A stretch of 64,000 bases of DNA from the NCBI RefSeq assembly GCF_016900095.1, contig NZ_JACJJP010000004.1, positions 62,001-126,000 on the forward strand. Reading direction: 5' to 3'. Below, one piece after another: positions 39,097 through 50,828 of this stretch. The notes below the pieces were generated by a model. That model was not told where the DNA came from, made no database searches, and worked only from the letters and a program-made list of their open reading frames with translations. Every line of letters starts with the position of its first letter. The first letter of the stretch is position 1. The DNA is from Gemmiger formicilis (lineage in GTDB: Bacteria; Bacillota; Clostridia; Oscillospirales; Ruminococcaceae). A program made the position numbers and the translations under genes.

Positions 39097-39222
39097 CTTT
39101 TGTGTGCCTTTCTCTCCCCCCTTCTGCGGCGCGGTATCATATCTGCAAAAGCCGAATATACTGATACAGGCGCTTATTTCCAAGAAAAGCGCCTTGTACT
39201 TTTTTAGTTGCGGGGTGTGCTT

Positions 39223-41067
39223 ATGTGCGGAATTGCCGGATTTTGCAGCTTCAAAGCTGATTTTCTTCAGGAGCCCGGGCGTTGGCCCCGGGCTCTTGTG
39301 AGGATGCGGACAGCGATTGCCCACCGGGGCCATGATCAGACCGGGGAATATCTGCAACACAATGTAGGGCTTGCCCATACCCGGCTTTCCATCCGGGACC
39401 TGCGCGGCGGGGCGCAGCCCATGCTGCGGCGGCGGGGCGAGAGCGACTATGGAATTGTGTACAACGGAGAAATCTACAACGCCGATGAGCTGAAGCAGGA
39501 ACTGCTCCGGCGCGGATACCACTTTGAAACCACCTGCGACACCGAGGTTATTCTTTGCGGGTACATGGAATACGGCATGGAGATCGCAAAAAAGCTGAAT
39601 GGAATTTTTGCGTTCGCCATATGGGATGAAAAACGGAATACCCTGTTTCTATGCCGGGACCGGCTGGGGGTCAAACCGCTGTTCTATGCCGTGAAAGGGG
39701 ATACCCTTGTCTTCGGGTCAGAGCCCAAGGCCCTGTTTGCTCATCCGCTGGTTCACCCGGAAGCCGACCTGGACAGCTTCCGGGAAATCTTTGGGCTGGG
39801 GCCGGCCAGAACCCCCGGGTGCGGCGTATTCCGTGGTCTGCGGGAAGTCAGACCCGGGTGTATTGTGGAATACTCCCGGAAGAATGTGCAGGAGTATTCC
39901 TATTGGACGTTGGAAGCAAAGCCACATACGGACAGCTATGCCCGAACAGTGGAAACCGTATCCTGGCTGCTGCACGACGCCATTCAACGGCAACTGGTAT
40001 CCGATGTGCCGGTGTGCAGCTTTTTATCCGGCGGCATCGATTCCACCGTGGTGACCGCCATCGCCTGCCGACAGCTGCAGTCGGAAGGGCAGACGCTCAA
40101 CACCTTTTCCTTTGATTTTACCCACAACGATACCTGCTTCCAATCCAACGCCTTTCAGCCCACCCGGGACCGCCCGTATGTGGACCTGGTCCTGGGTTTG
40201 TATCCCCTGCACCACACCTATCTGGAATGTGACGAGACCACGCTGGCAGATTTGCTGGAGGATGCTGTCCGGATCAAGGACCTGCCGGGCATGACCGATG
40301 TGGACGCCTCCCTGTATTACTTCTGCGGCCTGGTGAAGCAGCACAACAAGGTGGCGTTGACCGGCGAATGTGCCGACGAGATTTTCGGCGGCTATCCCTG
40401 GTTCTACCGGGAAGACCTGTTCTATGCCGACGGCTTTCCCTGGTCGGCGGACCTGTCGGCCCGGACAGCCCTGCTTTCGGACGAAGCCATCCGCATTTTG
40501 CAGCTGGAGGACTACATGAACGAGCAATACCGGGATACCCTGGCCCGGGTGCCTGCCCTGCCGGAGGAACACGGCGACGCACTGCGCAGGCGGGAGATGG
40601 GCTTTCTGAATCTGCGCTGGTTCATGCAAACCCTGTTGGACCGCATGGACCGTACCAGCATGGCCTGGGGGCTGGAAGCCCGTGTCCCCTTTGCGGATCA
40701 CCGGATTGTGGAGTATGTATATAATGTCCCCTGGGAGATGAAATACGAAAAGGGCATGGAAAAGAAGCTGCTGCGGGATGCCTGCAAGGACCTTTTACCG
40801 CCACAGCTGCTGTACCGTAAAAAGAGCCCCTACCCCAAGACCTACTCGCCGGTATACGAAGCTTTGCTGGCCAAGCGGTTCCGGCAGATCCTGGAGGACC
40901 CCCAGGCCCCCGTGCATCGCTTTCTGGACCGCAAAAAGGCGGAACGTTTTCTGGAACAGCCTAAGGACTACGGCAAGCCGTGGTTCGGCCAGCTGATGGC
41001 AGGGCCGCAGATGATCGCCTACTTTTTGCAGATCAACTATTGGATGAAGCAGTACAACATCACCTGA
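39223..41067 (+). CDS. asnB: Asparagine synthase (glutamine-hydrolysing)
   Basis: A 614-residue AsnB. The N-terminal MCGIAGF places the glutaminase Cys at residue 2 after Met; NGEIYN and GCRDRLG-like LCRDRLGVKPLFY follow. The synthetase domain has the pyrophosphatase loop FLSGGIDSTVV (about residue 268) and GECADEIFGGYPWF. It makes asparagine from aspartate, ATP and glutamine. The ATG at 39223 fixes Cys2; the longer frame from 39208 would bury it. A single-gene unit between two hairpins. Confidence 0.93.
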   Translation: MCGIAGFCSFKADFLQEPGRWPRALVRMRTAIAHRGHDQTGEYLQHNVGLAHTRLSIRDLRGGAQPMLRRRGESDYGIVYNGEIYNADELKQELLRRGYHFETTCDTEVILCGYMEYGMEIAKKLNGIFAFAIWDEKRNTLFLCRDRLGVKPLFYAVKGDTLVFGSEPKALFAHPLVHPEADLDSFREIFGLGPARTPGCGVFRGLREVRPGCIVEYSRKNVQEYSYWTLEAKPHTDSYARTVETVSWLLHDAIQRQLVSDVPVCSFLSGGIDSTVVTAIACRQLQSEGQTLNTFSFDFTHNDTCFQSNAFQPTRDRPYVDLVLGLYPLHHTYLECDETTLADLLEDAVRIKDLPGMTDVDASLYYFCGLVKQHNKVALTGECADEIFGGYPWFYREDLFYADGFPWSADLSARTALLSDEAIRILQLEDYMNEQYRDTLARVPALPEEHGDALRRREMGFLNLRWFMQTLLDRMDRTSMAWGLEARVPFADHRIVEYVYNVPWEMKYEKGMEKKLLRDACKDLLPPQLLYRKKSPYPKTYSPVYEALLAKRFRQILEDPQAPVHRFLDRKKAERFLEQPKDYGKPWFGQLMAGPQMIAYFLQINYWMKQYNIT

Positions 41068-41074
41068 AAATACA

Positions 41075-41112
41075 AAGAGGGTGTCCCTTCGCGGGACACC
41101 CTCCCTGTTTTT
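41075..41112. terminator. Terminator between asnB and the GtrA gene
   Basis: Perfect stem GAGGGTGTCCC/GGGACACCCTC (41077-41103) with a TTCGC loop and Ts on the plus side. It may serve both convergent genes. Confidence 0.75.
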
Positions 41113-41611
41113 ATTGTTTGGGCATGATCCAGAATTTCATGGTCGGGTAGCTGAGTACCACCTGCACCACGATGTTCAGCACATTGGCCAGGGTGGGCGC
41201 CAGGGCGGCTGGCAGGCCCAGCCAGACAAAGAAACTCTGGCTATAGGCGGGCAGCGCACTGGACACGATGACCAGCACCACCGCCAGCACCACGTACCGC
41301 GGCACCGCACGGCTGAACGCCGCGTTGGATTTGAACACCCAGTTTTTCTGTACAAAGAAGTTCACCGTCTGGGCGGCGGCGGTGGCCACAAGAAAGCTCA
41401 GAAAGCCGCACAGTCCCAGATCGCTTTCCACATTGGTGTAGCGGAAGATCAAAAATGAGAAGGGTTGATTCCGGAACGCTGTGAACACGAATCCGGTACA
41501 CACCCACATGACCACAAAATTGACCACAGTGGCACAGTTGGACAGCAGGTTGAAGAGGATGAACTCCCACACGGTGGGATGCGCCTTGATCCAGGCCTTG
41601 ACTGCGTTCAT
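41111..41611 (-). CDS. GtrA-family membrane protein
   Basis: A 166-residue protein with four membrane spans and the GtrA signature around FILFNLLSNCATVVNFVVMW and NFFVQKNWVFKS. Family members move polyprenyl-linked sugars or assist surface glycosylation. The extracellular loop between the first spans is longer than usual (FRNQPFSFLIFRYTNVESDLG). It overlaps the end of the GH3 gene (ATGA), so glycan handling and glycan hydrolysis are translationally linked here. The substrate is unknown. Confidence 0.85.
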   Translation of the reverse strand: MNAVKAWIKAHPTVWEFILFNLLSNCATVVNFVVMWVCTGFVFTAFRNQPFSFLIFRYTNVESDLGLCGFLSFLVATAAAQTVNFFVQKNWVFKSNAAFSRAVPRYVVLAVVLVIVSSALPAYSQSFFVWLGLPAALAPTLANVLNIVVQVVLSYPTMKFWIMPKQ

Positions 41612-44040
41612 GGTGTTTCCTCCTTTGCCGGCGCATTCAGGCGCTGTTCCAGCGCCCTGTTGCGAAGGCCGTTGAGCACAAACTCCGCCACAAGCCGCAC
41701 CAGCCCGATGATCCAGAAGCCTTTCAGTTCCATGACCAGAGCGTCAATCATCCCCATGCTGACCATGCCGTTGGTCATTTTGGCCACGGCACGCAGAGGC
41801 ATGTTGTAATTGAACAGCAGGTTCAGGTCGGGGGTTCCGGCTTGCAGGCTGCGGCGCAGCAAGGCCGTATGCACCCGGTTGATCAGCCAGGCCAGCGGAC
41901 TGCGGCTGTGGCCGATCTCCCCCAGAGTCATATTGCGGTCAATCACCGTCTTTTCCTGGGGGATGGGGTGTCCCAACAAGCGCTCGAATTCCCGGTTGGT
42001 CACATGGACGATGTCCCCAGTCTCGTAATGTGGCAGGGCCAGCCCCGTATAGGGCAGGGGGTCGCCGCTGCCCGGCAGGGTGACCGCCGCACGGAACCGG
42101 ATATCCGCCGCCGATGTACCGGCACAGATCTGGTAGTCGCCCCCTTCCACCGCCCAGCGGTCGGTTTCCACGTTCCAGTAGCGGAACGCACGCCGGTCCA
42201 GCGGGATGGTCAGGGTAGCGCTCTCCCCCGCTTTCAGGAACACCTTGCGGAAGGCCTTGAGCTGACGCCGGGGTCCGAACACCTTGGCATCCGGCTTTCC
42301 CAGATAAATCTGCACCAGTTCGGCGCCGTCAAAGCTGCCGGTGTTTTCCACCGTCAGGGTCACTTTTGTGGAATCGGCCCGGAAATCCCGCCAGGCGAAG
42401 GTGGTATAGCTCAGACCATACCCGAAGGGAAACGCCACCGGGACCCCCACCGTCTGATAATAGCGGTAGCCCACATACACGCTCTCCCGGTAGGGCACGA
42501 TCCGCCCCGGCCCCGCAAACGTTCCGGCGGCAGGGGTATCCTGGTACCGCAGGGGCCAGGTTTCGGCCAGATGTCCGCCGGGGCACGCCTTGCCGGTGAG
42601 CAGGTCCAGCACCGCACCGGCACCGGCCTGCCCGCCCAGCGCCGCATACAGCAGCGCCTTGCAGTGCGGCAGCCAGGGTGTTTCCACCGGGGCCCCCGCG
42701 CTGAGCACCACCACCGTGTTGGGGTTGACTTCGGCCACGGCAGACAGCAGGTCCACCTGGTTGGGAGCCAGGCACATGTCCGTCCGGTCCATGCCCTCGC
42801 TTTCCCGCAGCTCGTCCAGCCCCAGGAAAAGCAGCACCACATCCGCCGTTTGGGCCAGGGCCACCGCCTCGGCCTGCCTGGCCGGGTCGGGGTTGCCGTT
42901 GCGGGCAAAGCCCGGGGCATAGCCCACGGCGCAGATGCCGCTTTCTTCCAGCAGGCCGGTGACGGTATCCACCCGGCTGGCGTTGACGGCGCTGGACCCG
43001 GCCCCTTGGTACCGGGGCACGGCGGCAAAATCGCCGATGACCGCCACCGTGGCGGCAGGGTCCAGGGGCAGGATGCCTTCGTTTTTCAGCAGCACCATGC
43101 CTTCGGCCGCGGCACGGCGGGCCAGGCGATGGTGGGCTTCCGGGTCGGCGGAAGGCTTGTTCTGCCGGATGCGTCGGGCATCCTCAACGAGGGTGAGCAG
43201 CTCCCCTACCCGGGCGTCGATGTCCTGCTCGGTGATCTTGCCGGTTCGCACAGCTTCCATCAGTTCCCGCACGGCGTCCCCGCCGGGGGCGGGCATTTCC
43301 AGGGTGGAACCGTTTTTTACCCCCAGGGCATGGTCGTTGGACCCGCCCCAGTCGGAGACCACCGTCCCGGTAAAGCCCCACTCTCCCCGCAGGATGTCCT
43401 GCAGCAGATGGGTGTTTTCGTTGGCGTAGGTCCCGTTGATGAGGTTGTAGGAGGTCATGAGGGAGCGGGGTTTGCCTTCCTCCACGGCAATCTCAAACCC
43501 GGTGAGGTAGATTTCCCGCAGGGTACGCTCATCCAGGGTGGAATCCGACACCATGCGGCGGGTCTCCTGGTTGTTGACCGCAAAATGCTTGGGACAGGCG
43601 GCGGCACCGCCTTTCTGGATCCCCCGGATCATGCCGGCGGCCAGTTTACCCGCCAGGATGGGGTCTTCGGAATAATATTCAAAGTTGCGCCCGCACAACG
43701 GGCTGCGCTTGATGTTGAGGCCTGGGGCCAGCAGCACGTCCACGTCCTGGGCGGCGGCCTCCTGCCCCATGGCCCGGCCCACTTCCTCCAGCAGGTCGGG
43801 GTCCCAGCTGCCGGCCAGGGTGACCGCCGTGGGAAAGCAGGTGGACGGCGCACTGGGATTGATGCCCAGATGGTCGCTGGCACCTTCCTGTTTGCGCACC
43901 CCGCTGGGGCCGTCGGACAGCCAGAGAGACGGGATGCCGTGTCCGGGCAGAGCCCAGGTGCAGAAGGTGTCGGCACCGGAGAGCAGGGCACATTTTTGTT
44001 CGAGGGTGAGGGTGGAAATTTTCTTGTCAGTCACCGTCAT
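41608..44040 (-). CDS. GH3 beta-glucosidase family enzyme
   Basis: An 810-residue glycoside hydrolase family 3 protein in the usual order: barrel (residues 1 to about 300) with substrate site KHFAVNNQE and the nucleophile Asp230 in VVSDWGG; alpha/beta sandwich (about 315-540); fibronectin-like domain (about 580-660). A C-terminal extension of about 110 residues contains hydrophobic helices and may attach it to the membrane. No signal peptide is seen. An ATG at 44040 is close to AAGGAG; a GTG at 44034 has better spacing. It precedes the GtrA gene in one transcript. Confidence 0.9.
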   Translation of the reverse strand: MTVTDKKISTLTLEQKCALLSGADTFCTWALPGHGIPSLWLSDGPSGVRKQEGASDHLGINPSAPSTCFPTAVTLAGSWDPDLLEEVGRAMGQEAAAQDVDVLLAPGLNIKRSPLCGRNFEYYSEDPILAGKLAAGMIRGIQKGGAAACPKHFAVNNQETRRMVSDSTLDERTLREIYLTGFEIAVEEGKPRSLMTSYNLINGTYANENTHLLQDILRGEWGFTGTVVSDWGGSNDHALGVKNGSTLEMPAPGGDAVRELMEAVRTGKITEQDIDARVGELLTLVEDARRIRQNKPSADPEAHHRLARRAAAEGMVLLKNEGILPLDPAATVAVIGDFAAVPRYQGAGSSAVNASRVDTVTGLLEESGICAVGYAPGFARNGNPDPARQAEAVALAQTADVVLLFLGLDELRESEGMDRTDMCLAPNQVDLLSAVAEVNPNTVVVLSAGAPVETPWLPHCKALLYAALGGQAGAGAVLDLLTGKACPGGHLAETWPLRYQDTPAAGTFAGPGRIVPYRESVYVGYRYYQTVGVPVAFPFGYGLSYTTFAWRDFRADSTKVTLTVENTGSFDGAELVQIYLGKPDAKVFGPRRQLKAFRKVFLKAGESATLTIPLDRRAFRYWNVETDRWAVEGGDYQICAGTSAADIRFRAAVTLPGSGDPLPYTGLALPHYETGDIVHVTNREFERLLGHPIPQEKTVIDRNMTLGEIGHSRSPLAWLINRVHTALLRRSLQAGTPDLNLLFNYNMPLRAVAKMTNGMVSMGMIDALVMELKGFWIIGLVRLVAEFVLNGLRNRALEQRLNAPAKEETP

Positions 44041-44109: not shown

Positions 44110-46992
44110 TTACTGCTCTTTCTGGGGCGCAGTTGCCTGTTTGCGTTTTTTGTACTGTTTGCGGATCACCGTCAGATCCAGGGCAGCCAGAACCAGAACC
44201 GCCACGACATCGATGGCAATGGCAGTGACCTTCCAGCCTTCCATGCCGGCATTGGCCGCATCTTCGGCATAGGCACTGCTGTTGACCACGGTGTACAGAA
44301 TGTTCTTGCTGGTCTTGCGCAGGGTGGCCACGTTGGAAGCCGCCGTCAGATCCTTCATGTGGTTGTAGTCGGAATCGTAGGTGGTGAGCAGAGCGTCCAC
44401 ACCGTTGTGGAAGGCCAGGTCGGCGTTCATGTAGCCGCGTCCGTTGGGGGTGAAGTTGTCGGTCAGGACAAACCCGCGGAAGCCCCATTCGTCCCGCAGC
44501 ACGGTTTCCAGCAGTTCGCTGCAGGTGCCGGCCCAGCGGTTGCCGATATCACACCAGGCACACATGACCGCGTTGGCGCCGCCTTCCTTGACGGCATACT
44601 CAAAGGGCTTGAAGTAGATTTCGCGCATGGCCTGCTCGTTGGACCAGATGGAGACCATCATGGCGTTGGAGTCGTACATGGCAAAGTGCTTGATGTAGGC
44701 ATACACGCCGCGGCTCTTGGCACCGGCCACCGCGTTGGCTGCAATCTTACCGGCCAGGACGCCGTCCTCGGAGTAATACTCGAAGTTGCGGCCGCCAAAG
44801 GGGGTGCGATGGGTGTTCATGGCCGGTGCATACCAGCCGTTGACGTTCATCTCGTTGGCCATCTTGCCGATGTTTTCGCCAAACTGATAGGCCAGCTCCT
44901 GGTTCCAGGTGCAGGCGATCATGACAGCCACCGGGAAACCGATGGAGCCGGTGCCGGTGAAGTTGTTGTTGATGGAAGCGGGGCCGTCGCAATCCACGGT
45001 GGCCACCTTGCCGATGGAGGGCACTTCCGCTGTCTGGAAGCCTTCCAGACCGCACAGGTTGCTCATCTCTTCCACGGTCATCTCGTCCAGCAGGTCCTCC
45101 CACATGGGATCGTCGTAATCCTTGCCGCGCATATCGGCCAGTTTCAGGCCATTGTCCGCGCCGGTGGTGGGCATCTCCACGCTGTCATCGATGTACATGT
45201 TGAAGTCAAAGACTTCGTTGGTATAGAATCCTTCCACGTATTCCGGCGCCATATCCAGCGATGCGGGCGCCGCCGTGGCCTGGGCGTAGTTGGCAAAGCC
45301 ATCTTTGCGGGACAGGTAGGTCACGTCCCCCGCGGCAAAATCAAACTGGTTGGTGGCCACGATGTTGTCGGTGGAACGGGGCTGGGTATCATAGACCACA
45401 TCGCTGTCCACGGTATAGGTGCGGGAGTCGATGACATTGTGGGAATCCTTGTTGATGGAGATAATGTAGTCACCGGCTTCCAGCACATAGCTGCGGTGCA
45501 CATTCATATCGTAGGAGGCCAGATCGTCCACCGGGAAGGAGATGGCAACCTCCTCGGATTCGCCGGGCTGCAGCAGGGCGGTCTTTTCGAAGGTGATCAG
45601 GTTGGCGGCGGATTTTTCGATGCCGCCGTTGGTGTAAGGCGGGTTGGAGTATACTTCCACCACGTCCTTGCCGGCCGCAGAACCGGTGTTGGTAACCGTG
45701 ACGGTGAAGCTGATGTTGCCATCCGCCACTGTCATGTCACTCATCTTCTGGTCAAAGGTGGTGTAGCTCAGGCCGTAGCCGAAGGGATACTGCACGACCT
45801 TGTCATAGTCCAGGAAGCCTTCCGCGGCGGCAGTCTCATACCACTTGTAGCCCACGTAGATGCCTTCCACGTAGTTGGTGAACTTGGGCGCCGCCACCAC
45901 CTCGCTGCCGTCGGTGCGGTAGGAAGTGACCGCCATATCGCTGATGTTCTCGTAAGGCAGCTGGTTGGAGTTGTTCCACCAGGGAGTGTTGGTCAGGTCA
46001 TACACAAAGGTATCCGAGGTACGGCCGGAAGGGTTGATCTCGCCGTTAAGGATCTTGCCCAGCGAATTGAAGCCCACGTTGCCGGTGCCGGGGCACCACA
46101 GCACGCTCTTGATCTGGGGATACTCATCCACAAAGCCCAGCTCAAAGGAATGGGCGCTGTTGTATACCAGCAGAACGTTATCAAAGTTGCTGCACACCAG
46201 ATCCACCATGTTGCGCTCGGTCTGGGACAGTTCCAGGTAATGGCGGCCTTCGGGGAAATCGTCGTACTCGGTGCTGTTGCTGTCATAGGCCACGGTGCTC
46301 AGGTCTTTGGGCATATCGTTATAGCCTTCGCCGCCGATACGGGCAATGACGATGACGGCCACATCGGAGAAGTTCTTGGCGTTGTTCATCATCTCGTCGG
46401 TGTACATGTCCGCGGTGGGTTCCGGCAGGGTCCAGGCCTGCTTGGATTCGGACATCTTGAGCCGGCTGGAGGTGTAGGACGCGTAGAAGTCATGCAGTTC
46501 GGTGTTCAGGGTGAAGCCGGCATTCTGCAGGCCTTCCTCCAGGCTGACAATGGGCCACAGGTCGTTGATGGACCCGGAACCGGCGCCACCATACACCGGA
46601 TTGATGGAGGCCCAGCCGAACAGGTTCAGGTTTTTCTGCTGGGTCAGAGGCAGCATGCCGTCGTTTTTCAACAGAACCATGCCTTCCCCGGCGATCTCCT
46701 CCGCCACTTCGGAGGCAGCGTCGGCGCTTTCCTGGCTGACGGTGCCGTTGCCGGTAGCCAGACCGATCAGGGTGGACATGGGGCCGAAAGCAATCAGGTT
46801 GACCACCACGCCGGCTGCCAGGATACCGGCCAGGATGGACTGGCTGCGAACCAGATATTTCTTGTGTTTTTCCAGCTTGCGGCAAGCAATGACAATGGCC
46901 ACGACAAGCACAAGAATACAGGCCAGCGCAATGAGATAAGGCTTGCAGAGATCCAGAACGCCTATAACGTCGTTAATGTTGATTTCCAGCAT
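44110..46992 (-). CDS. Circularly permuted, membrane-anchored GH3 protein
   Basis: A 960-residue GH3 protein with reversed domain order. After two N-terminal membrane spans (about residues 18-37 and 50-72) comes the alpha/beta sandwich (about 95-420; GEGMVLLKNDGMLPL, QYPFGYGLSYTTF), a fibronectin-like domain (about 425-520), and only then the barrel (about 640-880; GGRNFEYYSEDGVLAGK, YIKHFAMYD). The likely nucleophile is Asp845 in FVLTDNF. A third hydrophobic segment (about 921-943) and a basic tail end it. The catalytic part would thus be held at the outer face by both ends. Activity and substrate are not known. Confidence 0.88.
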   Translation of the reverse strand: MLEININDVIGVLDLCKPYLIALACILVLVVAIVIACRKLEKHKKYLVRSQSILAGILAAGVVVNLIAFGPMSTLIGLATGNGTVSQESADAASEVAEEIAGEGMVLLKNDGMLPLTQQKNLNLFGWASINPVYGGAGSGSINDLWPIVSLEEGLQNAGFTLNTELHDFYASYTSSRLKMSESKQAWTLPEPTADMYTDEMMNNAKNFSDVAVIVIARIGGEGYNDMPKDLSTVAYDSNSTEYDDFPEGRHYLELSQTERNMVDLVCSNFDNVLLVYNSAHSFELGFVDEYPQIKSVLWCPGTGNVGFNSLGKILNGEINPSGRTSDTFVYDLTNTPWWNNSNQLPYENISDMAVTSYRTDGSEVVAAPKFTNYVEGIYVGYKWYETAAAEGFLDYDKVVQYPFGYGLSYTTFDQKMSDMTVADGNISFTVTVTNTGSAAGKDVVEVYSNPPYTNGGIEKSAANLITFEKTALLQPGESEEVAISFPVDDLASYDMNVHRSYVLEAGDYIISINKDSHNVIDSRTYTVDSDVVYDTQPRSTDNIVATNQFDFAAGDVTYLSRKDGFANYAQATAAPASLDMAPEYVEGFYTNEVFDFNMYIDDSVEMPTTGADNGLKLADMRGKDYDDPMWEDLLDEMTVEEMSNLCGLEGFQTAEVPSIGKVATVDCDGPASINNNFTGTGSIGFPVAVMIACTWNQELAYQFGENIGKMANEMNVNGWYAPAMNTHRTPFGGRNFEYYSEDGVLAGKIAANAVAGAKSRGVYAYIKHFAMYDSNAMMVSIWSNEQAMREIYFKPFEYAVKEGGANAVMCAWCDIGNRWAGTCSELLETVLRDEWGFRGFVLTDNFTPNGRGYMNADLAFHNGVDALLTTYDSDYNHMKDLTAASNVATLRKTSKNILYTVVNSSAYAEDAANAGMEGWKVTAIAIDVVAVLVLAALDLTVIRKQYKKRKQATAPQKEQ

Positions 46993-47249
46993 TTTGGTGT
47001 ATTCCTCCTTTTCGTTTCCAGTTCAAGCGGTACCGCTGCCGAACTTTCCATGGCCTTATTGTACACGATTCCCTTCCGGCATGTTCTTCTTTTGCATAAT
47101 CTGGCGATTTTGTGGCATATTCTGTGCAATCTCCGGTTTTGGTTTTCCTTTTTCTTGTCATAATTTCTAAAGGCAATCGGTCTGGTCTTGTGCAGAATGC
47201 TTAACCACCGCAAAACAGGCCCGCCGCGTTCCCGCTGCGGCGGACCTGC

Positions 47250-48533
47250 TTATTTTTGTGTTTCCGGCAGCAATACCCGCAGGGTAAACCAGTTGTTTTC
47301 CCAGTGGACAGTGACAGTGCCGCCGTATTTCTGGGCCGTGGCCCGGATACTCTTGATGCCGTACCCTCCGTGGCCGCCCGGCCGGGGTGTGCCGTCGGCA
47401 GAAAGTTCCGGCGCCGTTTCACAGTAGTTCTCAAACCGCAGCATGACAAACCCGTTCTGGGCGTACACCGCCGTTCGGATCAGACGCTTTTCGGTGTCCG
47501 GGATGGCCTCCACGCTCTCGGTGGCGTTGTCCAGGGCAGTGCCCACGATGGTACAGATATCCGCCGTGGGCATAAAGTCCAAAAGATGGCCGTCCGCCAC
47601 GCAGGTCAGGTTGATCTCATGCTGCTGGCAGTACAGGCTTTTGGCGGTGAGAAGGGTATCCAGCACCGGGTTGCCGGTCTTGTTCTGGGCCTCGTACATG
47701 CGGATGCCGCTCTCCATCTCGTCCAGGGCGGCCGCCTGCTTGCCGGGGTCCCGTTCCGCCCGGATGGCCGCTATCTGCACCTTCAGGTCATGGTAACGGC
47801 GGTTGAGCAGGTGGATGTTTTCCTTGCTCTGGCGGTACTGCTCATACTGGCGATGCAGCACGTTGTCCATGGCGGACAGTTCTTCATGCAGGCGGGCCTC
47901 CCGCAGCTGTTCCTGCTGGATGGAGAGAATCAGCACCCCCGCAAAATCTACCAGAGTGCGGATATAAAACACGCTCATGGTGTTGCTGCCCGCCTGGGCA
48001 AAGCTCAGGTTGCTCACCGCAAAGGCGGTCAGTGCCATGACCACCGCGCTGGCCAGTGACCGCCAGGATGCCCCGATGGCCCCCACATGGCGCCCCATAC
48101 GGCGCACATCGAACCAGAACACAAACCCGTACACCACCGCATACACCGCCACCATCAGCAGCAGGGAAAGCGGGTGTCCGCCGGGAAGGTCGGGCCACAA
48201 AAGACAGTGCAGCTGCCATTCCAGGCTGGCAGCAAATTCCGCCAGGATAAAGGCCCGGGCACAGCAGTATCCGGCATCCTGCGCCGAAAGTTCGCACCCC
48301 AGCAGCAAAAACAGGTACATGGCCGCCACCGCCGCCATCATGCAGGGAATCCACCACACAAGGGGCACATGGCCGGTGAGCTGCAAAAAGGCGCCCATGC
48401 CCACCAGCCAGCCGGCGCCGAGCAGAACAGTGCCCACCCGCCCGAACCGCGGGCGCAAAGCCAGCAGATACAGCAGGCAGGCCAGCCACTCGGCCAAAGC
48501 GGTATACAGCCGCGGAATATCCGGCAGTGTCAT
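47250..48533 (-). CDS. GHKL sensor histidine kinase (AgrC-like)
   Basis: A 427-residue kinase with about six N-terminal membrane spans (residues 10-205), a linker coiled coil, the phospho-acceptor His in RRYHDLKVQ and a HATPase_c_5 domain (GTALDNATESV as N box, GGHGGYGIKS as G box). This is the peptide-sensing AgrC/ComD architecture, but no AgrB or precursor peptide gene lies near. It overlaps the response regulator gene by ATGA. The following gene on the strand is the permuted GH3, 257 bases away, a likely target. Confidence 0.88.
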   Translation of the reverse strand: MTLPDIPRLYTALAEWLACLLYLLALRPRFGRVGTVLLGAGWLVGMGAFLQLTGHVPLVWWIPCMMAAVAAMYLFLLLGCELSAQDAGYCCARAFILAEFAASLEWQLHCLLWPDLPGGHPLSLLLMVAVYAVVYGFVFWFDVRRMGRHVGAIGASWRSLASAVVMALTAFAVSNLSFAQAGSNTMSVFYIRTLVDFAGVLILSIQQEQLREARLHEELSAMDNVLHRQYEQYRQSKENIHLLNRRYHDLKVQIAAIRAERDPGKQAAALDEMESGIRMYEAQNKTGNPVLDTLLTAKSLYCQQHEINLTCVADGHLLDFMPTADICTIVGTALDNATESVEAIPDTEKRLIRTAVYAQNGFVMLRFENYCETAPELSADGTPRPGGHGGYGIKSIRATAQKYGGTVTVHWENNWFTLRVLLPETQK

Positions 48534-49240
48534 CGGACGCCTCCCCCGATATAGTCTGTAAGTGCTTCCATGAAGGCCTTCTTCTTGGGGCGGCTGATCT
48601 GCAGTTCGTAAGGCCCTACCTGCACCGTGTTCTGCTGCACCCCCAGCACCTGGGCCAGATTGACCAGGTAGCCGCTGTTGCAGCGGGCAAAGGGTTTGCC
48701 GGCCAGCTTTTCCTCAAAGCTCTTGAGGGTGCCCGGGGCGGTGAGTTCCCCGTCCTCCCCATACAGGCGCACCTTGTGGCCGTCGCTTTCCAGATAGTAG
48801 AGGGTGGCCACATTTACCCGCCGCAGACCGCCTTCCACCGGCACGGTGAGAAAGGTCTTCTGCCTGGCCTGCAGCCTGGCCACCGCCTTTTGCAGCTGCT
48901 GGGAAAAGGCAAAGTAGGGCACCGGCTTGAGCACATAGTCCAGGGCATCCACCGCATACCCGCGGATGGCAAACTGGGCCATGTTGGTGATGAAGATGAG
49001 CAGCACATCCTTATCCATCTGACGGATCCGCTCGGCGGCCGCCATGCCGTCCATGCGGCGCATCTGCACATCCAGCAGGATGATATCGTACACCGCGCGG
49101 TAGTCCGAAACGATCTCGTCCCCGTCCTCAAACAGGCTCAGTTCAAACATCCGCCCGAACTGGCGCTCATACCGGCGGATATAATCGGCCAGCTGGGCCT
49201 GCACCTGCCGGTCATCTTCCACAATGGCAATCCGGATCAT
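48530..49240 (-). CDS. LytTR-family response regulator
   Basis: A 236-residue regulator: receiver domain (residues 1-120) with acidic pair EDD (8-10), phospho-acceptor Asp57 in IILLDVQM and a Lys in VLKPVPY; then a LytTR DNA-binding domain (about 135-232; YYLESDGHKVRLY, FARCNSGYLVNL). It pairs with the overlapping GHKL kinase. LytTR proteins bind direct repeats upstream of target promoters. The ATG at 49240 follows GGGGGAG; the longer frame has no ribosome site. Confidence 0.9.
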   Translation of the reverse strand: MIRIAIVEDDRQVQAQLADYIRRYERQFGRMFELSLFEDGDEIVSDYRAVYDIILLDVQMRRMDGMAAAERIRQMDKDVLLIFITNMAQFAIRGYAVDALDYVLKPVPYFAFSQQLQKAVARLQARQKTFLTVPVEGGLRRVNVATLYYLESDGHKVRLYGEDGELTAPGTLKSFEEKLAGKPFARCNSGYLVNLAQVLGVQQNTVQVGPYELQISRPKKKAFMEALTDYIGGGVR

Positions 49241-49382: not shown

Positions 49383-50828
49383 TTATTCTGCGCCGGTGCG
49401 CTTGAACACAACGCCCACCGTCTTGATCAGGATACGCACATCCAGCCCCAGGGACCAGTTATCGATATAGGCCACGTCCAGCTTGACCACATCTTCAAAG
49501 TCCTGGATGTTGCTGCGTCCGCTGACCTGCCACAATCCGGTCAGGCCCGGTTTCATGGAAAGGCGGCGCTTGTGGTGGGAGTCGTACCGGTCATACTCAT
49601 CCAGCGTGGGCGGCCGGGTTCCCACCAGGCTCATATCCCCCTTCAGAATGTTCCAGAACTGGGGCAGCTCGTCGATGGAGGTGCGGCGGATGAACTTGCC
49701 CACCCTGGTGATGCGGGGGTCGTCGTCCATCTTGAACATCAGGCCCTGCATCTTGTTCTGTTTCATCAGTTCCTGCTTGCGCTGCTCCGCATCCACATAC
49801 ATGCTGCGCAGCTTATAAATACGGAAAATACGCCCGTTGAGCCCCACCCGTTTCTGGCAGAAAAAGAGGGGGCCGGGGCTTTCCAGTTTGAGAGGAATGG
49901 CGGTGACGGCGATGATCGGCACCGAGATGACCAGCCCTACCAGCGCCCCTGCAATGTCCATCAGCCGCTTGAGGACCATGGCTCCGAAATCATGTTCGGT
50001 AGCCATGATGGTGACAAAGGGCACCCCACCGGCGGTTTCCACGGTGGTTTGCAGCTTGGGGAACCACTGTTCCTCTTTGCGGGCAGCGGCGGTGTAGGGT
50101 TCCAGAACCGTCACGTTGAGATGCACGCACAGGCCCATGCTCTCCATCTCACTGAGAAGCGGCCGCAGGGAGTCGCCGCTTTGGTAGGGTACATTCACAT
50201 ACACTTCGTCCAGGGGTTCGCGGCGAATCCATTCCAGGGCGTCTTCGTACACTGCCGCCACCGGCACGCCGTCCACCTGTGCGCCGGGCTTGGCGGCATC
50301 CAGCAGCACCAGCCCCTGCAGCTTTTTGGTCCAGTCATGCTTGAGGTCATGAATCAGGGCGGGGGCCCGGTCGGAGGTGGTAATGATGCCCACCAGGGTG
50401 GCCAGAGAACCCTTGTAGAAATATTGGTTCAGGTAGGTTTTCAGGCCCATATGAGAAAGGTACAGGCAGACGGCGTTGGCGGTCAGCAGCCCCACATACA
50501 GGTAGCGGGATTCCAGCAAAGTGGCCTTGGTCAGCAGCAGACAGACCGCCAGCGCTGCCCCCAGCAGCACGGTGTTGCGCGCACAGTGGAGCAATTCGGC
50601 CTTCCAGCCGCGCCGGGTCAGCCTGGCTGCGCCGTTGAACCCGGCATACACCACCACAAAGGCCAGCAGCAGAATCAGGATAAACTGCCCCCAGTCCTGC
50701 CGGGTATAGTCCAGCAGCACATGCAGCCCTTTATCGGTGACCGCCCATGCAATCACGACACTGACCAGCAGGCTGAGCGCATCCGCCGCAAAATTCAGCG
50801 CATATTGGATTTTGTCCTTTTTAGCCAC
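49383..50828 (-). CDS. Exopolysaccharide initiating glycosylphosphotransferase
   Basis: A 481-residue polyprenyl glycosylphosphotransferase of the long WbaP/CpsE-like kind. Four N-terminal spans (about residues 10-130), a CoA-binding-like middle domain (about 140-270), another span (about 285-310) and the catalytic part with SPGPLFFCQKRVG, YKLRSMYVDAE, RRTSIDELPQFWNIL and GTRPPTLDE. It starts a surface polysaccharide by loading a hexose 1-phosphate on undecaprenyl phosphate. No glycosyltransferase cluster is adjacent. The ATG at 50828 lies close to the upstream hairpin. Confidence 0.9.
   Translation of the reverse strand: MAKKDKIQYALNFAADALSLLVSVVIAWAVTDKGLHVLLDYTRQDWGQFILILLLAFVVVYAGFNGAARLTRRGWKAELLHCARNTVLLGAALAVCLLLTKATLLESRYLYVGLLTANAVCLYLSHMGLKTYLNQYFYKGSLATLVGIITTSDRAPALIHDLKHDWTKKLQGLVLLDAAKPGAQVDGVPVAAVYEDALEWIRREPLDEVYVNVPYQSGDSLRPLLSEMESMGLCVHLNVTVLEPYTAAARKEEQWFPKLQTTVETAGGVPFVTIMATEHDFGAMVLKRLMDIAGALVGLVISVPIIAVTAIPLKLESPGPLFFCQKRVGLNGRIFRIYKLRSMYVDAEQRKQELMKQNKMQGLMFKMDDDPRITRVGKFIRRTSIDELPQFWNILKGDMSLVGTRPPTLDEYDRYDSHHKRRLSMKPGLTGLWQVSGRSNIQDFEDVVKLDVAYIDNWSLGLDVRILIKTVGVVFKRTGAE

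Follow-up and report, generated by a model that had tools for sequence, protein, structure and literature searches.

A permuted family 3 glycoside hydrolase with membrane segments at both ends and its sensor-linked gene neighbourhood in Gemmiger formicilis

Glycoside hydrolases of family 3 (GH3) from gut anaerobes are usually named beta-glucosidases from sequence alone, and members in which the order of domains is permuted have been described. In the ruminal enzyme GlyA1 (PDB 5K6L-O, PMC5104943; the articles cited here by PMC number are represented by passages of them) an alpha/beta sandwich and a fibronectin III-like (FnIII) domain precede the barrel, and a beta-glucosidase of Paenibacillus barengoltzii (PDB 5WUG/5WVP) shares the permuted order. 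BrGH3A, a permuted GH3 of gut origin, has 814 aa and no signal peptide, and is thought to be intracellular (PMC11233000). Here we analysed a stretch of 64,000 nucleotides of Gemmiger formicilis (the window; contig NZ_JACJJP010000004.1, positions 62,001 to 126,000), which encodes a permuted GH3 protein, called pGH3 below, next to the genes of a LytTR/GHKL two-component system. pGH3 is most likely a variant of a known enzyme type; its permuted fold is already known, and its double anchoring is common to a clade. More notable than the anchors is that the gene belongs to a conserved module linked to a sensor.

A link between LytTR genes and GH3 genes in Butyrivibrio proteoclasticus was remarked on in 2010, reportedly by Kelly and colleagues. 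In that species three LytTR genes each lie near a gene for a secreted GH3 with a C-terminal transmembrane helix; in the open-access literature searched, the passages of this article alone mention LytTR genes near membrane GH3s (PMC2914790). Mass spectrometry detected Bgl3A of the same species, which was described as possibly anchored in the membrane (PMC5217386). In B. hungatei, bgl3B (808 aa) and bgl3D (982 aa, C-terminal transmembrane helix) have neighbouring locus tags (PMC5716241), and bgl3D is among the genes upregulated on pectin (PMC6344614). Bgl3A and bgl3D resemble pGH3 in being GH3 proteins with a C-terminal membrane helix and, to judge by layout alone, may belong to its clade; the source passages give no biochemical characterisation of them. 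For the regulatory part, the closest described counterpart is VirSR of Clostridium perfringens, in which VirR recognises a pair of imperfect direct repeats, the VirR boxes, ahead of its target genes (PMC4877802). The pGH3 system is similar in combining a kinase and a regulator with upstream paired direct repeats, those of the window being the presumed site, whereas the targets of VirSR include toxin genes and regulatory RNAs. A further article on a response regulator (PMC6222199) deals with the OmpR type and was set aside.

Permuted fold and catalytic residues of pGH3

The open reading frame (ORF) of pGH3 runs on the minus strand from an ATG at 46992 to a stop at 44110, codes for 960 aa and is preceded by AGGAGG. 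Its parts, in window coordinates, are as follows.

44110..46992, minus strand: permuted GH3 protein (pGH3), 960 aa (ORF, Pfam, AlphaFold2 model, structure comparison)
45847..46680, minus strand: GH3 C-type alpha/beta sandwich, residues 105-382 (PF01915, Glyco_hydro_3_C)
45442..45666, minus strand: FnIII-like domain (Fn3-like), residues 443-517 (PF14310)
44371..44940, minus strand: GH3 barrel (Glyco_hydro_3), residues 685-874 according to Pfam (PF00933) and roughly 615-915 according to the structure match
46327..46329, minus strand: presumed acid/base Glu222, aligned to GlyA1 and T. neapolitana Bgl3B, invariant in alignment A1
44458..44460, minus strand: presumed nucleophile Asp845, aligned to GlyA1 Asp709, invariant in alignment A1

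All three domains scored above their own cut-offs (PF00933, 93.2 bits with a cut-off of 27; PF01915, 79.4 with a cut-off of 31), as expected of a GH3 protein, and their order, sandwich–FnIII–barrel, is the reverse of the usual GH3 order. The AlphaFold2 model, built from an input of 27 sequences, had a predicted local distance difference test score of 87.4 and a predicted template modelling score of 0.88. Among the 50 entries listed in the structure comparison (VIA-align), only the permuted enzymes 5wvp/5wug and 5k6l-o matched the model over nearly its full length, with Z of 38.5-42.1 over model residues 82-922. The Paenibacillus enzyme (Z ~42) matches residues 82-922 only, which lie outside the membrane segments of pGH3, and GlyA1 (Z ~39) matches residues 84-919, with 28-29% identity over the structure alignment. 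The remaining listed entries were partial matches (Z <= 20.4), the next best of them covering the barrel only. The Pfam order and the structure comparison, colinear with GlyA1, rule out a normal domain order; according to the model, the permuted order is real and of the kind already known from GlyA1 and the Paenibacillus enzyme. A preliminary description of this DNA, made from the sequence alone, had reported a permuted GH3 gene, with hydrophobic segments at both ends and the sandwich and fibronectin-like domain before the barrel. Both the ORF and the domain order agree with our results; structure prediction and comparison, which it had proposed as a check, exclude the normal order as the fold, and its statement that permuted GH3 enzymes are already known holds for GlyA1 and the Paenibacillus enzyme. 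Unlike pGH3, GlyA1 has a 120-residue C-terminal domain, and the passages of PMC5104943 mention no membrane segments in it.

By residue count on the alignment, Asp845, which the preliminary description had presumed to be the nucleophile, falls at the GlyA1 nucleophile Asp709, and Glu222 at the GlyA1 acid/base Glu143 (GlyA1 catalytic and glycon-site residues from PMC5104943). Both were invariant in 27/27 aligned proteins, that of the window included, so that the Asp nucleophile and Glu acid/base of GH3 enzymes are at their conserved positions. Four glycon-site residues of GlyA1 are also kept: Asp532 corresponds to Asp669 of pGH3, Arg597 to Arg735, Lys630 to Lys768 and His631 to His769. The full glycon-site set, a property of GlyA1 and not a definition of the fold group, is not retained, since pGH3 differs at the positions of Arg641, Tyr677 and Trp710.

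The three closest relatives of pGH3 are 74-76% identical to it. They differ from it by ~0.19 nonsynonymous changes per site and at 60-99% of synonymous sites, and this purifying selection rules out that pGH3 is a lone pseudogene. The closest named NCBIfam models are those of catabolic-type glycosidases, all under their cut-offs; against NF041610 (exo-alpha-(1->6)-L-arabinopyranosidase) pGH3 scored 254.4 bits, short of the curated 1300.

Membrane segments, clade and linked genes

Hydrophobic segments were called by the Kyte-Doolittle method with a window of 19 residues, and helices were taken from the AlphaFold2 model.

46882..46938, minus strand: membrane segment 1, residues 19-37, inside predicted helix 6-39
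46783..46839, minus strand: membrane segment 2, residues 52-70, inside predicted helix 42-69
44164..44220, minus strand: C-terminal membrane segment, residues 925-943, inside predicted helix 919-954, with a tail rich in Lys and Arg after it

The two N-terminal segments and the one C-terminal segment of the preliminary description were thus recovered by both approaches. Its further view that such double anchoring looks unusual did not survive comparison with relatives. In an alignment of 66 proteins (that of the window and 65 others, each >300 bits and >880 aa), 41 proteins, pGH3 included, have the same layout, and among the 25 others there are 15 with a single segment at each end; double anchoring is not unique to pGH3. 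All 41 three-segment proteins, again including pGH3, have a charge pattern that would place the N-terminus outside, the loop inside, the enzyme outside and the C-terminus inside: mean Lys+Arg was 5.2 in the N-terminal loop and 5.3 in the tail after the last helix, and 0.3-1.0 in the three other flanks. As positive charge is concentrated in this loop and in the tail, the pattern suggests that the enzyme domain faces outward. In a tree built by a quick method from 59 of the 66 rows (>350 bits, <1300 aa), the three-segment layout fell within a single supported clade, whose 42 rows include one (L075) with a broken ORF start. The clade includes proteins of Oscillospiraceae, Lachnospiraceae and Bifidobacteriaceae, and one from a metagenome-assembled genome (MAG) named Merdibacter (Erysipelotrichaceae), which groups with Bifidobacteriaceae and may have been misbinned. 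Relatives with the permuted fold have been characterised, but no assayed relative with double anchoring was found in the open-access literature searched.

The genes next to pGH3 are on the same strand, in the order regulator, kinase, pGH3, a GH3 of canonical order (cGH3) and a GtrA-like gene.

48530..49240, minus strand: LytTR response regulator, start MIRIAIVED chosen by eye, ORF open from TTG 49411 (PF00072, PF04397)
47250..48533, minus strand: GHKL-type histidine kinase, H-box YHDL (PF14501)
47094..47124, minus strand: direct repeat CAGAATATGC-N11-CAGATTATGC, presumed site of LytTR binding, with its 5' end 132 bp before the pGH3 start codon
47058..47063, minus strand: -10-like TACAAT, 30 bp after the repeat
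41608..44040, minus strand: cGH3, ATG 44040 chosen by eye, ORF open from TTG 44055, without N-terminal hydrophobic segment, with C-terminal tail
41111..41611, minus strand: GtrA-like small membrane protein, its ATG overlapping the cGH3 stop (PF04138)

The regulator, with its receiver and LytTR domains, and the adjacent GHKL kinase, with its H-box, make up a LytTR/GHKL two-component system. The kinase scored 26 bits against the AgrC model (cut-off 500), and no solved structure matched it by sequence at E 0.01. The closest solved relatives of cGH3 are named beta-glucosidases, and it scored 711.5 bits against NF041610, short of the curated 1300. Of the 40 loci with any match to cGH3, 7 had only short cross-matches to other GH3s. 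A C-terminal tail past residue 770 was present in 32 of the remaining 33, where the match was long, as against 5/20 controls.

Partners were counted in 40 loci with a three-segment protein, including the window and L075. Of these, 28 carry the regulator, 27 the kinase, 28 cGH3 and 28 the GtrA-like gene; 21 carry all four. The genes cGH3 and GtrA behaved as one unit in 40/40 loci (both present in 28, both absent from 12). The counts are raw with respect to contig ends, and at least one locus that lacks partners (L078) ends at a contig edge. When the first 104 residues of pGH3 were used to search 391 genomes of the class, nine matched, one of them the window's own, and in all eight other genomes the four partners lie with pGH3 in one locus; these eight genomes are also within the 40-locus count, and two of them are near-identical. 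The order of genes varies: cGH3 and GtrA precede pGH3 in some loci, the regulator–kinase pair is on the opposite strand in L142, and further genes lie between kinase and GH3 in L145, L146 and L147. In 24 other loci, which carry more remote permuted GH3s, the regulator was found in 13 and the kinase in 15.

No match to the kinase, the regulator or GtrA was found in 20 loci of canonical GH3s drawn from the same family of genomes, the window's own genome supplying two of the loci, nor in 20 loci whose permuted GH3s lack membrane ends (21 proteins, among which L153 has one hydrophobic stretch at the open-frame start and L158 one inside). Since both sets of controls lack it, the linkage to the two-component system and GtrA goes with the membrane anchors, and the soluble permuted loci (0/20) rule out that it is due to the permuted order as such.

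The direct repeat at 47094-47124 is a presumed binding site of the LytTR regulator, and no second place in the whole genome fitted its pattern with <2 mismatches. We tested for a shared motif in 21 of 30 kinase-to-GH3 regions (those of >=80 bases in which the match covered the GH3 start), with six regions used for training and 15 held out. Gibbs sampling on the six yielded a dyad, CAGTTTATGC, which was then scored in the other 15; there, 11 regions reached p<=0.002 when compared with 500 shuffles. A -10-like hexamer lies ~30 bp downstream of the dyad in 15 regions with a good dyad, counted without the near-duplicates L078, L082 and L084 and without regions with <14/20 matches, and 0/500 permutations did as well. 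An earlier scan with a by-eye consensus, drawn from the same sequences, gave no significant site in regions where the GH3 was not directly preceded by a kinase or regulator. Scanning 46950-47300 for sigma-70 promoters gave no match, an outcome without weight either way. No description of the five-gene module or of its repeat was found in the open-access literature searched.

Proposed function and alternatives

With moderate confidence, we favour the reading that pGH3 is a retaining surface exo-glycosidase under two-component control, its topology, regulation and catalysis being inferred. The N-terminal helical hairpin and the C-terminal helix would hold the protein at the outer surface of the cytoplasmic membrane. 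The membrane histidine kinase would detect an outside signal and phosphorylate the LytTR regulator, which would then bind the upstream direct repeat and turn on pGH3 and the genes behind it. At the cell surface, pGH3 would cut the non-reducing end sugar from an oligosaccharide or glycoside by double displacement (Asp845 and Glu222); the products would enter the cell, where the tailed cytoplasmic cGH3 would continue. The substrate is a guess, and so is the suggestion that the GtrA-like protein perhaps moves substrate or a lipid-linked sugar across the membrane. As for the action on a cell-surface glycan that the preliminary description had suggested, the enzyme is predicted to face outward, but the gene context gives no single answer. 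The GtrA-like neighbours, together with the glycosyltransferase family 2 (GT2) and UDP-galactopyranose mutase (glf) genes that follow GtrA in five loci and the related GT2 of Alloscardovia, hint at envelope glycans, whereas the GH2 and sugar transporter beside a paralogue described below and the pectin upregulation of a similar-looking gene hint at nutrient use. As these clues oppose each other, our confidence about the substrate is modest.

Several results weigh against the proposed function. The regulator was absent from 12/40 loci, the kinase from 13/40, and cGH3 and GtrA from 12/40, and the operon of the window showed no sugar transporter gene. In the motif test, 4/15 held-out regions were weak or failed (three with p of 0.038-0.086, one failing outright), the 15 contained near-duplicates (L081/L082, L083/L084, L075/L078 and L076/L080), and two of the six training regions (L041 and L043) gave poor sites. 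The authors of the B. hungatei work predict their own GH3 enzymes to be intracellular (PMC5716241, PMC6344614), and the GtrA, GT2 and glf neighbours are equally compatible with biosynthesis and with breakdown. At the glycon site of pGH3, Arg641 is lost through a two-residue deletion, Tyr677 is replaced by Trp813 and the stacking Trp710 by Asn846. The window's subclade (SH-aLRT, the Shimodaira–Hasegawa-like approximate likelihood-ratio test, 100 in a quick maximum-likelihood tree of 59 rows) shares these changes in 8/8 rows, all lacking Arg641 and having Trp at the Tyr677 site and Asn or Phe after the nucleophile; in the other 33 three-segment proteins the latter residue is Tyr (26), Trp (6) or Ala (1), and the Arg641 equivalent is likewise lost in L054, a remote protein (394 bits). 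With three glycon-site residues altered, activity of pGH3 on common aryl-glucosides may be low.

The glycon-site changes raise the possibility, to our minds improbable, that the subclade lost its glycon contacts and with them cleavage, leaving an enzyme that is inactive or drifting. Loss of the residues equivalent to Arg641 and Trp710 would fit this, but Asp845 and Glu222 are retained in 8/8 subclade rows, purifying selection is strong in comparisons with the relatives at 74-76% identity, and the same Tyr-to-Trp change in all eight rows looks like altered specificity rather than decay. We give similarly little credit to the idea that pGH3 is mainly a signalling partner, which processes or presents a ligand of the neighbouring kinase in a pair that acts as a sensor rather than as a digestive enzyme. 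The linkage of kinase and regulator to membrane-bound and not to soluble permuted GH3s, the placement of half of the genome's LytTR genes (3/6) beside membrane-bound permuted GH3 genes and the altered glycon site would fit such a role; however, the regulator or the kinase is missing from 12-13/40 loci, to judge by the upstream repeat, pGH3 looks like a gene regulated by the pair, and the catalytic residues are invariant in 27 aligned proteins.

A possible, though still unlikely, alternative is that the module acts on the cell's own envelope, trimming or recycling a glycan or glycolipid of it, with pGH3 outside, the tailed cGH3 at the inner face, GtrA as a carrier of lipid-linked sugar and the kinase sensing the state of the envelope. 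It would account for the joint presence or absence of cGH3 and GtrA in all 40 loci and for the lack of GtrA in both sets of 20 control loci, and it is favoured by the GT2 and glf genes and by a sugar transferase gene upstream on the same strand in the window. Yet that transferase is not conserved, GT2 and glf occur in a minority of loci, of which two pairs are near-duplicates, and the nearest NCBIfam models, even if below cut-off, are catabolic. Going further than the surface exo-glycosidase reading, one may propose that a widespread, previously undescribed five-gene gut module handles a membrane-linked or amphipathic glycoside on both membrane faces and that the subclade has a new glycon specificity; we regard this as rather doubtful. 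In any case, a clade with anchors at both ends, mostly one type of two-component system and a fixed partner pair would offer a route to the substrate through the kinase signal. The promoter repeat would give a ready reporter, and the changed glycon site of the subclade marks where a new specificity might lie.

Paralogues and further genes

The window's own genome has six LytTR genes in 3.26 Mb. Its permuted GH3 genes number at least five; one each on contigs C44, C22 and C66 encodes membrane segments, and the other two do not. A LytTR gene lies within ~4 kb of each of the three membrane-bound ones. Of the soluble ones, that on C66 (773 aa) is beside its neighbour's LytTR gene, and that on C55 (846 aa) has none nearby. 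The permuted GH3 gene at C22:50415-53168 (L088), with an internal TAA in this assembly, is beside LytTR/GHKL genes and those of a GH2 and a sugar transporter of the major facilitator superfamily. The one at C66:82845-85745 (L089) codes for ~1169 aa with four N-terminal and one C-terminal hydrophobic segments in a simple scan; it directly follows a LytTR/GHKL pair, itself preceded by the soluble permuted GH3 of 773 aa, and a relative in a Gemmiger MAG (L069) is 85% identical in DNA over 3.5 kb.

Two genes flanking those of the module were dropped as parts of it: the bacterial sugar transferase at 49383-50828, directly upstream of the regulator, had a partial match in only 1/55 other loci, and the asparagine synthase at 39208-41067 was not conserved in other loci. 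Elsewhere, the kinase-to-GH3 interval L145:10216-15717 encodes a membrane GGDEF protein, a GH114-like protein and a dCache chemotaxis receptor. A lipoprotein-like protein of 950-1000 aa is encoded between GtrA and the permuted GH3 at L058:4799-7801 and also in L055; the L058 copy matches the barrel of GH3 (53 bits) and, below cut-off, its sandwich, both in canonical order, and is possibly a divergent GH3. A cluster of small lipoprotein-like proteins near the permuted GH3 was seen in L047, L048, L049, L060, L086 and L087 (~165-210 aa in L047 and L048), and a larger, unrelated-looking ORF of L044 was grouped into the same cluster.

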